In this document: positions 1,058 to 36,710 of the stretch, piece after piece | Position numbering within the stretch: the stretch's first letter is position 1 | Layout: each line of letters opens with the position of its first letter | Translations under genes and position numbers: made by a program | Notes under the pieces: model-generated | Told to the model about the DNA's origin: nothing | The model's input: the letters and a program-made list of their open reading frames with translations, nothing else | Database searches by the model: none | Assembly (NCBI GenBank): GCA_947259645.1 | Contig: CAMYND010000027.1 | Coordinates: 9,328 to 70,461, forward strand | Reading direction: 5' to 3' | Origin: Thermodesulfovibrionia bacterium | GTDB taxonomy: Bacteria; Nitrospirota; Thermodesulfovibrionia; UBA6902 | DNA length: 61,134 nt

Positions 1058-3397
1058 CTAATAAATGGCCTCTGCCATGTAAATTACTTCTGGCAGGACA
1101 TAGGCTACAAGGTCTCTGTAAGTGATCATTCCAACAATTTTATCACCTTCAACTACTGGCAGGTGACGAATACCTTCTTTGGCAATGACCTGTATTGCGG
1201 TGCTGATCTCAGTGGAAGGCTCAAATGATGTGACCTGTTTAGTCATTATGTCTTTAATTGGTGTTGTCTCTAAGTTGATTTTAGCGTGAATATTGCGAAC
1301 AACATCCCTTTCAGTAAAAATTCCTGCAAGTTTTCCGCTGTCGTCAACTACCAGAACATCGCTGACTTTTTTCTCGGCCATTAAATTTACAGCCGCATCA
1401 GCTGTCTGGTCCTGGGTAACGGTAATTACCGCAGAAGGTTTTTTGTCTAAAATATCTTTAAGGATCATCCTTGCCCTCCTGTCTATAATTTCTATATCTT
1501 CTGTTGGTACTTTAAACACTTCTTCAAGCGTGACATGTCTGGGTTTCTTGATTAAAACTGCATCGATTGGACACGCCGTATAACAGGCCTTGCACTGGGT
1601 ACAGGCATTGCGGTCTATGATATATCTGGTTTTTGTTTCTGTAACTGCACCAAAAGCGCAAGCTTCTTTGCATAGTCCACACCTGAAGCATGTGTTCTGA
1701 TCTATTACAAATGCACCTGTGCCGCTGCAGACGTTTGCCCTGCAGTACTTTTCATAAATATGCTCTTCATACTCTTCCCTGAAATATTTGATGGTACTGA
1801 GAACAGGGTTAGGAGCACTTTGACCAAGACCGCAGAGAGAACCTTTCTGTATATATTGTCCAAGTTCAACCAGTTTTCTGATGTCACCCTGCTCGCCTTC
1901 CCCTGCAGTGATTCTTTCGAGAATCTGAAGCATCTGGTATGTTCCTATCCTGCAGGGAGGGCATTTACCGCATGATTCTGACTGGGTGAAGGAGAGGAAG
2001 AACTTGGCAACGTCAACCATGCAGGTGTCTTCATCCAGAACTACCATTCCGCCTGATCCCATCATTGAGCCTGCAGCCCAGAGTGTGTCAAAATCTACCT
2101 TAAGGTCAAGATTTTCAGCTGGCAGGCAGCCACCTGATGGACCACCGGTCTGGACTGCTTTAAACTCTTTGTCACCGAGCATTCCGCCGCCGATATCAAA
2201 AATAATTTCTCTTAGGGTAATTCCCATGGGCACTTCAACAAGACCTGTGTTCTTGACCTTTCCTGTCAATGCAAAGACCTTTGTCCCTGGTGAAGTTTTT
2301 GTGCCGATTGACGTAAAGTAATCCGCGCCTTTCTCAATGATGATCGGAACACATGCAAATGTCTCTATATTATTGAGGTTTGTCGGAAAACCCCAGGCAC
2401 CGCCGCCTGGCTGTGAAAGTCGTGGAGGCCTCGGCCTTGGGAAACCTCTCTCCCCCTCAATGGATGCGACAAGGGCAGTAGATTCACCGCATACGAATGC
2501 TCCTGCACCTTCCCGTATATCTACGGTAAAGCTGAAGTCAGTGCCAAGTATATTATTGCCGAGAAGTCCCAATTCTTCAGCCTGCTTTATAGCTATTTTG
2601 AGGTTTTTAACAGCAAGCGGATATTCATGTCTGACATATACAAAGCCGTATTGTGCGCCAATCGCATATGCATTGATCGCCATACCTTCCAGCAGACCGT
2701 GCGGGTCTCCTTCCATGATAGACCTGTCCATGAATGCACCCGGGTCACCTTCATCACCGTTTGCAATGACGAGTTTTATATCTCCTGGGGCAGATTTGGT
2801 ATGGGCCCATTTTTTGCCGGCCGGGAATCCTGCTCCGCCTCTGCCTCTTAAATTAGCTTTATCAACTTCATTCAGAACTTCATCTGGACTCATTGAGAAC
2901 AGGGCTTTTTCAAGGCCCGCATAACCGCCGACTGCGATGAAGTGGTCAATGTTGTTAGGGTCTACGACACCGTTATTTCTGAGGGCAATTCTCTTCTGTT
3001 TTTTATAAAAAGGAATATCGTTCATTAATGGAATAGGATCATCAAGAATGCTGTCCCGGTAAAGACCCTGCCTGTAAGGCATGTTACCTACCATTGAATA
3101 ATTCATTATGGAAGCAACATCTGCCGGCTTTGTTCTTTGATAGAAAATATTCATCGGTTCAATCTTGAGAACAGGGCCTTTCTGGCAGATACCCTGACAA
3201 CCGGTTTTAACGATTTCAATTTCAACCCCGCTGTCCGCTGCTTCCTTCTGAAATGAATCAATGACCTTGTGTGCTCCGGTTGCCGCACAGGCAGTACCGC
3301 AGCAGACTCTTGCCCTGAGCGCATCAGGATCAAAAGTTTTGTTCTTAATACTCTCTCTGTATTCCTTTAAATCATTTGGGCTGCTCAGTTTTGGCAT
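1058..3397 (-). CDS. HydB/NuoF-like NADH- and FMN-binding subunit with C-terminal CBS pair
   Basis: This 779-residue flavoprotein should exchange electrons between NAD(H), FMN and Fe-S clusters. Domains in order: a thioredoxin-like [2Fe-2S] region (C32/C33, C37, C67, C71); the NuoF flavin/NADH core with RGRGGAGFPAGKKW at 184-197; SLBB; the N3 cluster (C476, C479, C482, C522); two [4Fe-4S] ferredoxin motifs (C570-C580, C599-C609); and a CBS-domain pair at about 650-770. Hydrogenase HydB and formate dehydrogenase beta subunits share everything except the CBS pair, which usually binds adenine nucleotides and suggests control by energy charge. It lies between nuoE-like and Fe-S genes downstream of cooS. 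Whether it belongs to a hydrogenase or formate dehydrogenase complex depends on the truncated gene at the left edge. Confidence 0.88.
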   Translation of the reverse strand: MPKLSSPNDLKEYRESIKNKTFDPDALRARVCCGTACAATGAHKVIDSFQKEAADSGVEIEIVKTGCQGICQKGPVLKIEPMNIFYQRTKPADVASIMNYSMVGNMPYRQGLYRDSILDDPIPLMNDIPFYKKQKRIALRNNGVVDPNNIDHFIAVGGYAGLEKALFSMSPDEVLNEVDKANLRGRGGAGFPAGKKWAHTKSAPGDIKLVIANGDEGDPGAFMDRSIMEGDPHGLLEGMAINAYAIGAQYGFVYVRHEYPLAVKNLKIAIKQAEELGLLGNNILGTDFSFTVDIREGAGAFVCGESTALVASIEGERGFPRPRPPRLSQPGGGAWGFPTNLNNIETFACVPIIIEKGADYFTSIGTKTSPGTKVFALTGKVKNTGLVEVPMGITLREIIFDIGGGMLGDKEFKAVQTGGPSGGCLPAENLDLKVDFDTLWAAGSMMGSGGMVVLDEDTCMVDVAKFFLSFTQSESCGKCPPCRIGTYQMLQILERITAGEGEQGDIRKLVELGQYIQKGSLCGLGQSAPNPVLSTIKYFREEYEEHIYEKYCRANVCSGTGAFVIDQNTCFRCGLCKEACAFGAVTETKTRYIIDRNACTQCKACYTACPIDAVLIKKPRHVTLEEVFKVPTEDIEIIDRRARMILKDILDKKPSAVITVTQDQTADAAVNLMAEKKVSDVLVVDDSGKLAGIFTERDVVRNIHAKINLETTPIKDIMTKQVTSFEPSTEISTAIQVIAKEGIRHLPVVEGDKIVGMITYRDLVAYVLPEVIYMAEAIY

Positions 3398-33316: not shown

Positions 33317-33763
33317 TTAATGATCTACGGCGTACCCTTTTTCCGTCCATGTGGAATAGCCTTCCCGCATCCACATCACATTCTTATAGCCCGCTTCTAT
33401 GGCCGCTTTTGAAGCATAGTATGATTTCCATCCATTGGGACCGTCACTGTGAAAAACGATTTTTGCGTTCTTGTCCCCGGGCAGTTTGGACATATCAAAC
33501 TCGCCAGTACGCTCAGCAGGATGCCCTTTTTTCGTCCATTTATAGGGAAGTGATACAGCACCGGGCAGGTGGCCTTTACCAAAATTAAGAGCTTTTCTCA
33601 TATCATATACCATCATGCCTTCTTCAACCATTTTTTTTGCGACATCTGCGGAAACCATCTGGACACCTTCCGGCGGAGTTTCCGGAGTAGGTACTGATCC
33701 TGCCATCACCATGCCGGTAAAGGCAAAGAGAGCTACAAAAGTCATCAACAATATTTTCTTCAT
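33317..33763 (-). CDS. Exported rhodanese-fold protein lacking the active-site cysteine
   Basis: The start is taken as ATG 33763, with GGAGGAAAAT just upstream. The 148-residue protein has a signal peptide (about 1-21, ending VMAGS), then a single rhodanese domain (KNAKIVFH, KSYYASKAAIEAGYKNVMWMREG). At the catalytic loop (105-114, HSDGPNGWKS) the expected Cys is absent, and no cysteine occurs anywhere in the protein. It therefore cannot be a normal sulfurtransferase and may bind an anion or a partner in the periplasm. It is followed by a strong hairpin and preceded by an 852-bp gap with two structured elements. Confidence 0.88.
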   Translation of the reverse strand: MKKILLMTFVALFAFTGMVMAGSVPTPETPPEGVQMVSADVAKKMVEEGMMVYDMRKALNFGKGHLPGAVSLPYKWTKKGHPAERTGEFDMSKLPGDKNAKIVFHSDGPNGWKSYYASKAAIEAGYKNVMWMREGYSTWTEKGYAVDH

Positions 33764-33918
33764 ATTTTCCTCCATTCACGGATATATGAGTTAATTTCCT
33801 TTACAGGAAATATGTATCTGCTTCATTTCTTATCGGTTCATGCATGGATATACTTTAGAAGGATTATCAGCAGGGCAGGGGTGCTTTTATAACGCTTCTC
33901 AGGGGAGAGGAAATAAAA

Positions 33919-34010
33919 AAGGATGCTGATCTTTTGAGGGGACATGGTCAAAGTTAAAATAGGTTCTCGGTGTTGGAAGGGATAACTTAAACCGAAAGAT
34001 CAGCATCCTT
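33919..34010 (-). ncRNA. Structured element, copy 1 (unknown RNA or palindromic element)
   Basis: A 16-bp perfect outer stem (33919-33934 with 33995-34010) encloses about 60 nt. Inside are the conserved block GGGGACATGG (33938-33947), an inner helix AAGTTA/TAACTT, and a purine-rich GGAAGGGATAAC segment. On the minus strand the outer stem is followed by TTTTTTATTT, like an intrinsic terminator. Copy 2 at 34235-34328 keeps the layout with compensating base changes. I do not recognise the family. Confidence 0.5.
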
Positions 34011-34234
34011 ATTCTGTGATATATCTGTTTGTCAGGTCTTTTTGCTCGCTCTCCCTGGAACGTCCTGTATTAGCCGGAATCACTGTACGTCAATTCCTTA
34101 CTCCTTAGCCTTATTTATTATCGACATTAGGTTTGGAAAACTTTAGGGCTGAGTAATGAAAGCCTCATCAATACATATCTGATTATCGAAAAAACCGTGT
34201 AGGGGAAAGGCTGAATGGGGATAAAGGAAATTAA

Positions 34235-34328
34235 GGATGCTGGCCCATGTTAGGGGACATGGCTGAAATAAAAGGTTGGGCTCTTAGCGTAGGCAGGGAA
34301 ATAACCTTTTAATCAGGGGCCAGCATCC
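34235..34328 (-). ncRNA. Structured element, copy 2 (unknown RNA or palindromic element)
   Basis: A 12-bp outer stem (34235-34246 with 34317-34328) encloses the same conserved block GGGGACATGG (34253-34262). The inner helix is AAAAGGTT/AACCTTTT, and the loop segment GGCAGGGAAATAACC matches copy 1 in position. Outer and inner helices differ in sequence from copy 1 but remain paired, which indicates selection on structure. The element is not assigned to a known family. Confidence 0.5.
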
Positions 34329-34615
34329 GAGCTGATTTCCTCTATGTCTATAATCATTCTACTATATCCAAATAACTTTGTAAATACCCGGATTTAAAAT
34401 ATAGGATTATTTATTCAGAAAGTGAAAATAGAGTAAATAAATCAAATTAATCAGTTAGTTATGAATTGCAAATTTATCCGGAAGTAGATGGAAATTAAAA
34501 TCTCCCTAAGGAAAAGGAATAAGGTTGAAATCAATTAAGAAAATGTATGGGTTACTGCAGAATATTTCTTATCATCAAGAGGGCTGCCTCACTGCCGGTG
34601 CATATCTGACCGAAA

Positions 34616-35260
34616 TTATACGGATGTTAACCCTTCACGAATAGCATACTTTGTCAGCTCGGCAACATTGCGAATGTTCAGCTTTCCCATGACCTGCCGT
34701 CTGTGAGACTCAATGGTCTTGGCACTTACATGAAGGTCAGCTGCGATCTCTTTTGTAGACTTGCCTTCAGCAATAAGCTGCAGAACTTCACGCTCCCTGT
34801 CTGTTAAAAGGGAAAATGACTTTGGACTGGGCCCTGATGACTGTGACACCAGGCTTTCTACAACTATACTTGCTATCTGGGGATTAATATATGTTTTGTT
34901 GTCCAGGACAACCCGTATCGCATGTTCAAGTTCATCAAACGCACTGTCTTTAATAAGGTATCCCGATGCCCCTGCTTTAAATATTTCTGAAATGAACTGT
35001 TTATCATAATGCATTGACAGGGCCACGACCTTTATGGCCGGATGATCTGCTGTTATTTTTCGTGTGGCATCTACCCCGTTCAAGCCGGGCATGCTGATGT
35101 CCATGATAACTACATCTGGAGACAGCTCACCTGCCAGCTGAATCCCTTTCCTGCCGTCCGCTGCTTCACCGACAACTTCCATATCACTGTAACTCTTTAT
35201 GAGCGAGCGGATACCGTCCCGTAATATTTTATGGTCGTCTACTAATAATATCCTGATCAT
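34616..35260 (-). CDS. NarL/LuxR-family response regulator
   Basis: The start is taken as ATG 35260 (AAGGAGTCAACGAG upstream) rather than 10 codons earlier. The 214-residue protein has a receiver domain (DD at 8-9, phospho-acceptor D54, switch K near 104) and a C-terminal LuxR-type HTH (LLTDREREVLQLIAEG, then KTIESHRRQVMGKL). It overlaps the end of the sensor-kinase gene by about 32 bp, so the two form a coupled two-component pair. Targets are unknown; the gap downstream holds two structured elements. Confidence 0.94.
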   Translation of the reverse strand: MIRILLVDDHKILRDGIRSLIKSYSDMEVVGEAADGRKGIQLAGELSPDVVIMDISMPGLNGVDATRKITADHPAIKVVALSMHYDKQFISEIFKAGASGYLIKDSAFDELEHAIRVVLDNKTYINPQIASIVVESLVSQSSGPSPKSFSLLTDREREVLQLIAEGKSTKEIAADLHVSAKTIESHRRQVMGKLNIRNVAELTKYAIREGLTSV

Positions 35261-36710
35261 CTCGTTGACTCCTTTTCTTAGGATTGGCATTATTTAAGGG
35301 GGCAACAATCGTAACCTTTGTGCCGCCGCCAGACCTGGACTCCACAGTAAAGAGCCCGCCGATCTGGTTCATTCTCTCCCTTATGTTGAATAAACCAAAT
35401 CCACTCGGTTTTTCTGAAGCACCGGTAAAACCGCTGCCATTATCCTCCACCGTAAGTTCCAGGTTTTCACTGCTGCTGGTCATTGTTATGGAAACACTGG
35501 TTGCTCCGGAATGTTTTACGACATTAACCAGCAGTTCCCTCACCGCCTGAAAAATAAAAAAACGAACATTGTTATTAAATGGCTTATTAAAATCATCACT
35601 ATGACAGCGTATATCCAGGTGATGTTTATCACGGAACTGATCCGCAAGCCAGTGAACAGCGTGACTGAGCCCTAACTCATAAAGTATAGGAGGACTCAGT
35701 TCAAAAGTCAATGACCGTGTTTCCGTGATCGTCTGATCTATCAACTGAGCCACTTCCTGTATGCTTCTTTTAAGAGCTGCCGAAGGAGCTGACTTGCCGA
35801 GGGCACCGAGCTTAATCTTGGTCAGGGCCAAAGTCTGGCCGATGCAGTCATGAAGCTCCGTCGCGATTCTCCTTTTTTCATTTTCTTCAATGAGTGAGAG
35901 TTTTGAAGCCAGGGACTGAAGCTGTTTCTGGTAGTCATCAAGTTCCTTTTCAGTCTCTATTCGTTTGGTAATGTCCCTGAATACGATAACAAATCCGGTC
36001 CTGTTTCCCACAACGTCCTTGATCGGAGCTGAGCTTAATTCCACACTTATGGGAGATTTTCCCTTGATCAGCAGTTCGTATCTGGAATGCTCAGTAACGA
36101 TTCCCTCTCTGATTATGTTATCAAGCATACTGGAGAGACTGTTTTCCATCTTGTCATCGTGGGAAATGGTACTCACATGTTTACCCTGAGCCTTTTTTAT
36201 GCTAACCCCGGTGAGTGCCTCTGCGATCGGATTCATGAATGTGACCGTGCCATTATTGTCTGTGGATATTACAGCGTCATTAATGCTTCTCAGGGTGGTG
36301 TATAGCCTGGTTTCACTCTGCTTTAACTTATCTTCCATTTTGTGTTTATACAGTGCCATTTCGATAGTTGCATGCATTTCCCTGTCTTTGAAAGGCTTAA
36401 CAAGATAGCCATATGCCCCGGACTTCTTTGCTTTCTTCAGAACCTTGTTGTCTGTGTGAGCGGTAAGGTAAATTATTGGAATATTATGATGGGATAAAAT
36501 CTTTCGCGCTGTTTCTATGCCGCTCATGTTGTCCTGCAGGATAATATCCATCATAATCAGGTCAGGCGGGGTTGTTTTCGCGATTTTTATGGCGTCCTTG
36601 CCTGTAGCAGCGGTTGCTATTACATTGTATCCGAAAGACAGGAGGCTGGCCTCAATGTCTTTGGCGATGATCCGTTCATCTTCCACAACGAGTATGGATG
36701 TTTTTCCCAT
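35229..36710 (-). CDS. Cytoplasmic hybrid sensor kinase: REC-PAS-HisKA_3-HATPase
   Basis: This 493-residue soluble histidine kinase has no membrane segments. Domains: a receiver (1-120, phospho-acceptor D55), a PAS sensor (about 130-250, ending VIVFRDITKR), a coiled coil, a HisKA_3 dimer domain with H287 (ATELHDCIGQTLAL), and an ATPase domain (ELLVNVVKHSG, DNGSGF, GFGLFNIRERM). The HisKA_3 type is the usual partner of NarL-class regulators, and such a regulator overlaps its 3' end. The N-terminal receiver means it integrates input from another kinase as well as the PAS signal. Confidence 0.93.
   Translation of the reverse strand: MGKTSILVVEDERIIAKDIEASLLSFGYNVIATAATGKDAIKIAKTTPPDLIMMDIILQDNMSGIETARKILSHHNIPIIYLTAHTDNKVLKKAKKSGAYGYLVKPFKDREMHATIEMALYKHKMEDKLKQSETRLYTTLRSINDAVISTDNNGTVTFMNPIAEALTGVSIKKAQGKHVSTISHDDKMENSLSSMLDNIIREGIVTEHSRYELLIKGKSPISVELSSAPIKDVVGNRTGFVIVFRDITKRIETEKELDDYQKQLQSLASKLSLIEENEKRRIATELHDCIGQTLALTKIKLGALGKSAPSAALKRSIQEVAQLIDQTITETRSLTFELSPPILYELGLSHAVHWLADQFRDKHHLDIRCHSDDFNKPFNNNVRFFIFQAVRELLVNVVKHSGATSVSITMTSSSENLELTVEDNGSGFTGASEKPSGFGLFNIRERMNQIGGLFTVESRSGGGTKVTIVAPLNNANPKKRSQRDDQDIISRRP

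Follow-up and report, generated by a model that had tools for sequence, protein, structure and literature searches.

What kind of element stands twice, in slightly different form, between a two-component operon and a rhodanese-like gene of this Thermodesulfovibrionia bacterium, and which strand does the cell transcribe? In the window, by which we mean the whole stretch of 61,134 nucleotides that was analyzed, a covariance model places two structured elements at 33919 to 34010 (copy 1) and 34233 to 34330 (copy 2). The shared layout with covarying helices that the earlier note had described for them was borne out at both positions and in the family alignment. That note had called the family unknown, and so it is by Rfam 15: none of its 4227 families, including LhrC, RsaE and the Csr/Rsm types, reached the gathering threshold anywhere in the window, and only chance-level matches appeared around the two copies at E values of up to 10. 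We consider it likely, with a probability of about 70%, that the sequences represent tandem genes of multicopy, stand-alone, Hfq-associated, C-rich trans-acting sRNAs of about 100 to 130 nt, encoded on the minus strand.

The further copies that the earlier note proposed to look for in related genomes turned out to be many. A covariance model built from four copies of the host's own genome found about 120 to 124 copies in 30 of the 37 genomes of the host's taxonomic family, with 1 to 9 copies per genome. A second model, of the opposite (minus) strand, identified 117 copies on that strand at an E value of ≤1e−5, within 100 genomic regions, and scored copy 1 and copy 2 of the window at 78.0 and 91.3 bits, respectively. 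Applied to 396 genomes sampled evenly from the phylum, it recovered copies from 15 members of the host's family and, outside this family, one clear but diverged copy in a single genome, and a pattern scan of public genomes gave matches in Nitrospirae, Nitrospiraceae and Thermodesulfovibrionia MAGs. The copies fall into three subtypes: A (like copy 2 of the window), B (like copy 1), which lacks the seed hairpin yet retains the CCAUGUCCCCU block, and C, which is about 72 nt long with a shortened inner helix. At one locus (L152, 4501 to 4622), a copy carries a tandem duplication of its 3′ half and thus captures the element in the course of growing by slippage.

The paired changes in the helices are real and occur throughout the family. 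In the minus-strand alignment of 117 copies, 88.3% of the cells are paired. Changes on both sides are seen in 22 of the 25 pairs, and double-changed cells number 253 versus 63 ± 12 in shuffles. Counts for the inner helix are inflated by the fitting of the alignment to the structure, whereas the outer stem, 95% paired, is anchored at both ends. Control structures slid by 1 to 3 columns paired in merely 33 to 49% of the cells. The covariation check in homologues that had been called for thus gave a strong result. Compared with shuffled sequence, the two window copies fold with z values of −6.6 and −6.8 on the minus strand and −5.4 and −6.3 on the plus strand. The conserved outer stem forms the closing helix of the RNA, with a U-run after it, the inner helix presents a C-rich loop (UUCCCUGCCUACGCUAAGAGCCC in copy 2), and the strand that joins the two stems presents the nearly invariant CCAUGUCCCCU. 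This block lies at 34252 to 34262 (minus strand) in copy 2 and at 33937 to 33947 (minus strand) in copy 1, and in subtypes A and C it lies within a small hairpin (CAUGUCCCCUAACAUG in copy 2). Within it, UCCCCU is 93 to 100% conserved and is the family's most conserved and exposed part, with an unpaired probability of 0.96 to 0.99 (0.76 for the first U); the C-rich blocks of the inner loop, UUCC..GCCUA and GAGCCC, come second in conservation. Hence, by conservation and by pairing probabilities alike, the RNA carries a conserved unpaired C-rich seed, and the candidates for contact with mRNAs on the minus-strand siblings are UCCCCU, the putative target-binding seed of copy 2, and UUCCCUGCC.

The transcribed strand is most likely the minus strand, as judged from G-U wobbles, the U-run, sigma-70-like sites and FNR/CRP-like palindromes; the strand that the earlier note described is, on the same evidence, probably the untranscribed one. 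At pairs 3 to 12 of the outer stem, 40 departures are G-U on the minus strand versus 3 that are A-C there, i.e., G-U on the plus strand (P = 3e−9 in a simple binomial test). At least 6 T residues within 10 nt past the 3′ end were counted in 86 of 114 copies on the minus strand versus 49 of 115 on the plus strand, and the four plus-strand positions just before the element are 70 to 80% A, which reads as a U-run after the minus-strand hairpin. The T-run noted after copy 1 on the minus strand is therefore real and a feature of the family.

In the window, a U-run lies 3′ of the copy 1 hairpin as a putative terminator tail (33911 to 33920, minus strand), and a weaker U-rich tail, TTAATTTCCTTT, follows copy 2 (34222 to 34232, minus strand). 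Because the U-run comes after the closing outer stem, the element is probably its own terminator. A simple terminator scan found nothing since the hairpin exceeds the size of the scan's model. A promoter-like TTTACA-N17-TAGAAT spans 34384 to 34356 on the minus strand and belongs to copy 2, with the −35-like hexamer at 34379 to 34384 and the −10-like hexamer at 34356 to 34361; no clear promoter of its own was seen for copy 1. Such sites are enriched family-wide: a sigma-70-like score of at least 10 occurs upstream of the minus-strand element in 35 of 121 cases versus 12.6 in shuffles, an enrichment that is modest per copy, and in 1 of 122 cases on the plus side versus 8.0 in shuffles, which is a depletion. 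Judged on its sequence, the element has the features of a discrete conserved RNA with its own promoter and terminator.

The upstream regions also differ among the copies. Upstream of the minus-strand element there are 15 palindromes of the FNR/CRP type (ATGAT-N4-ATCAT), compared with a mean of 0.64 in shuffles and none on the opposite flank. All but one of them are located 47 to 74 nt upstream of the element, and most are accompanied by a hexamer resembling TATAAT at a distance of about 29 nt from the palindrome center. At class II promoters, the activator is centered near −41.5, and the distance from the palindrome to the putative −10 hexamer would correspond to this spacing. CRP/FNR-type regulators are encoded in all 37 genomes of the host's family; no FNR-like site was seen at the window's own two copies. 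A direct repeat, TTCAYA-N5-TTCAWA, stands before the −10 hexamer of seven copies in six genera and is found 0 times on the other side. At these loci (L077, L087, L112, L114, L133, L173 and L098), it overlaps the −35 region and resembles a site of the OmpR/PhoB family. Nearby NtrC-type regulators had suggested sigma-54/Qrr-like regulation, an idea that was rejected since TGGC-N-TTGC sites were not in excess. At the two-component locus, no conserved activator motif was recognized by eye across genera.

Could the element then be part of a neighboring gene rather than a gene itself? On the minus strand of the window, the order is a HisKA_3 sensor kinase with receiver and PAS domains (35229 to 36710), a NarL/LuxR-type response regulator with Pfam Response_reg and GerE domains (34616 to 35290), copy 2, copy 1 and, on the other flank, the rhodanese-like gene (33317 to 33775), all three genes being conserved neighbors by domains and synteny. 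This order would suit a cis element, either a leader or riboswitch of the downstream rhodanese gene or a 3′ untranslated region or terminator of the two-component operon upstream, and across the family the upstream gene does share the strand of the element in 71 copies, versus 37 in which it is oppositely oriented. The downstream gene, in contrast, is split almost evenly, with 58 copies in the same and 50 in the opposite orientation, which speaks against a leader, and a same-strand position upstream of a recurrent class of genes was not found. The riboswitch-like leader of the rhodanese gene considered in the earlier note is unsupported for this reason and because the neighbors vary widely. 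In 16 loci from seven genera, a copy is flanked by the regulator and the kinase, in g13 both copies remain in the absence of the regulator/kinase pair, and other copies adjoin NtrC-type regulators, a uvrD-like helicase, an ArsR/arsenite transporter and further genes. With such unrelated neighbors at different loci, and with promoters and activator sites directly upstream of the element, we regard a cis role as very unlikely. Still less credible is a non-autonomous mobile palindrome of the REP/MITE kind, which had also been suggested. The element is multicopy with terminal inverted arms, truncated or decayed relatives occur, and some copies lie near contig ends. However, the number of copies per genome is low, tandem copies always have the same orientation, synteny is conserved across genera, the G-U signature is specific to one strand, the promoters appear regulated, and the only Y1 transposase of the genome carries a different palindrome; a scatter of non-syntenic copies together with a transposase to match them was not found. 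Most copies are syntenic, and copies next to the same gene in different genera resemble each other more closely than copies with different neighbors (0.68 versus 0.63), which fits old duplications followed by vertical descent and not recent transposition. Own promoters, an own terminator, covariation and synteny together support the tandem-sRNA idea of the earlier note.

Some side observations concern other genes. The only RAYT of the genome, tried as an origin of the element and rejected, has the palindrome GAGGTCGGACCTC. A REP-associated tyrosine transposase gene (L003, 580 to 1350; G000 C104) lies amid GAGGTCGGACCTCGATA repeats and adjoins the apparent end of a 23S rRNA gene. In several genera, a small cysteine-containing protein of about 103 amino acids without a Pfam match is encoded between tandem RNA copies (L167, 4615 to 4926, and relatives; cluster c6).

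What would such an RNA bind? We favor pairing with mRNAs because of the exposed, conserved UCCCCU, the co-occurrence with Hfq and the precedent of LhrC discussed below. Hfq is encoded in 29 of the 30 genomes with the RNA versus 2 of the 7 without it (Fisher's P = 2.7e−4, uncorrected for kinship), a correlation that is partly phylogenetic, as three of the five double-negative genomes belong to one genus; the single RNA-bearing genome that lacks Hfq is 78% complete. A stand-alone sRNA could also act by titrating an RNA-binding protein for which the CCAUGUCCCCU hairpin is the recognition site. The invariance of the block exceeds what a partial anti-Shine-Dalgarno seed would require, the block sits in a small hairpin in two subtypes, and perfect seed complements are absent from the genome except in the elements and a few coding sequences. 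We nevertheless think titration improbable, since subtype B keeps the block without the hairpin, the unpaired C residues are the most conserved bases, as pairing predicts, and the Hfq co-occurrence fits a pairing sRNA. The protein in question would be one other than CsrA on the plus strand: a CsrA/RsmA-type reading of the plus-strand GGA motifs was overturned by the strand evidence, and GGA-containing hairpin loops are found on the plus strand only.

The search for targets of a pairing sRNA in the host's own genome gave no excess of near-perfect seed complements (16 + 16 versus 22 + 22 in the reversed control), and exact complements were absent from start codons save for one element. A perfect 19-nt complement, TGTTAGGGGACATGGCTGA, occurs in the 5′ leader of a gene for a 326-amino-acid protein in two genomes of different families (L043 of G030, about 1495 to 1520, minus strand; L016 of G044, same offset), as a possible target or a captured fragment; it is not conserved across the family. 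Without the full scaffold, the seed complement is present at about 20 further places in the family, mostly intergenic. Some of these keep a CAUG-UCCCCU-CAUG hairpin or adjoin hairpins of another kind, others are evidently truncations of the element, and they may be remnants or same-seed sRNAs on another frame. At L265, L269, L272, L275 and L277, and likewise at L010 in the host's own genome, an intergenic seed block lies beside quite different hairpins; these could be sRNAs with a shared seed on another scaffold or decayed copies.

The best reading, by analogy, is that the Nitrospirota family would work in the manner of LhrC of Listeria monocytogenes, to which Rfam shows no homology. LhrC is a multicopy sRNA under two-component control whose redundant UCCC motifs bind Shine-Dalgarno regions, and it binds Hfq yet acts on lapB without needing it (PMC4132741). 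LhrC1-5 resemble the present family in having multicopy, partly tandem siblings, several unpaired UCCC motifs, one of them in the terminator structure, two-component control and a link to Hfq, which is binding for LhrC and gene co-occurrence here (PMC4132741). They differ in phylum, in having no sequence or structure match to our family in Rfam and in forming two successive stem-loops, whereas here one long closing stem encloses an inner helix. C-rich sRNAs of Firmicutes such as RsaE, FsrA and IsrR likewise have a conserved single-stranded C-rich UCCC motif assumed to pair with Shine-Dalgarno regions (PMC4132741); their scaffold is unrelated and they usually have few copies, compared with up to nine siblings under different promoters here. 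RsmX/Y/Z and CsrB are also multicopy sRNAs linked to two-component systems, and GGA motifs on the plus strand of the element suggest a likeness, but the plus strand is probably not an RNA and the minus strand has no GGA loops. The family may also resemble Gram-negative sibling sRNAs, namely NmsR/NgncR_162-163 and alphaproteobacterial siblings, in which the siblings have common target-binding sequences; these differ from it in sequence, structure and lineage.

We hypothesize that the RNA, predicted to use Hfq in view of the gene co-occurrence, uses its C-rich blocks to base-pair with several mRNAs at their G-rich ribosome-binding regions, a contact that the nature of the seed suggests, and that translation of these mRNAs would thereby be blocked. 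Because subsets of copies carry different upstream sites, either the FNR/CRP-like palindrome or the TTCAYA-N5-TTCAWA repeat, different copies are apparently switched on by different regulators, and the siblings might pass different signals, redox or anaerobic via an FNR-like factor and others via two-component systems, to shared targets. A bolder possibility, on which we would not count, is a lineage-wide hub for signal integration in which the invariant seed UCAGCCAUGUCCCCU, carried by many siblings under different regulators and on other hairpin scaffolds too, addresses one shared set of mRNAs. If true, many environmental inputs, through an FNR-like factor, an OmpR-like direct repeat and NarL-type or NtrC-type two-component systems, would converge on shared mRNAs.

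In summary, the family is real and, by Rfam 15 and a partial search of the open literature that found nothing specific among small-RNA papers on Nitrospirota or Thermodesulfovibrionia, previously unlisted; its kind, the multicopy C-rich sRNA, is known. It is a clean candidate for Rfam and a good case of promoters that diverge among copies while the seed stays fixed. For this Nitrospirota lineage, it would provide a conserved and well-defined sRNA family whose several siblings are regulated differently and expose a nearly invariant seed, and it would make post-transcriptional regulation in uncultivated subsurface bacteria testable.
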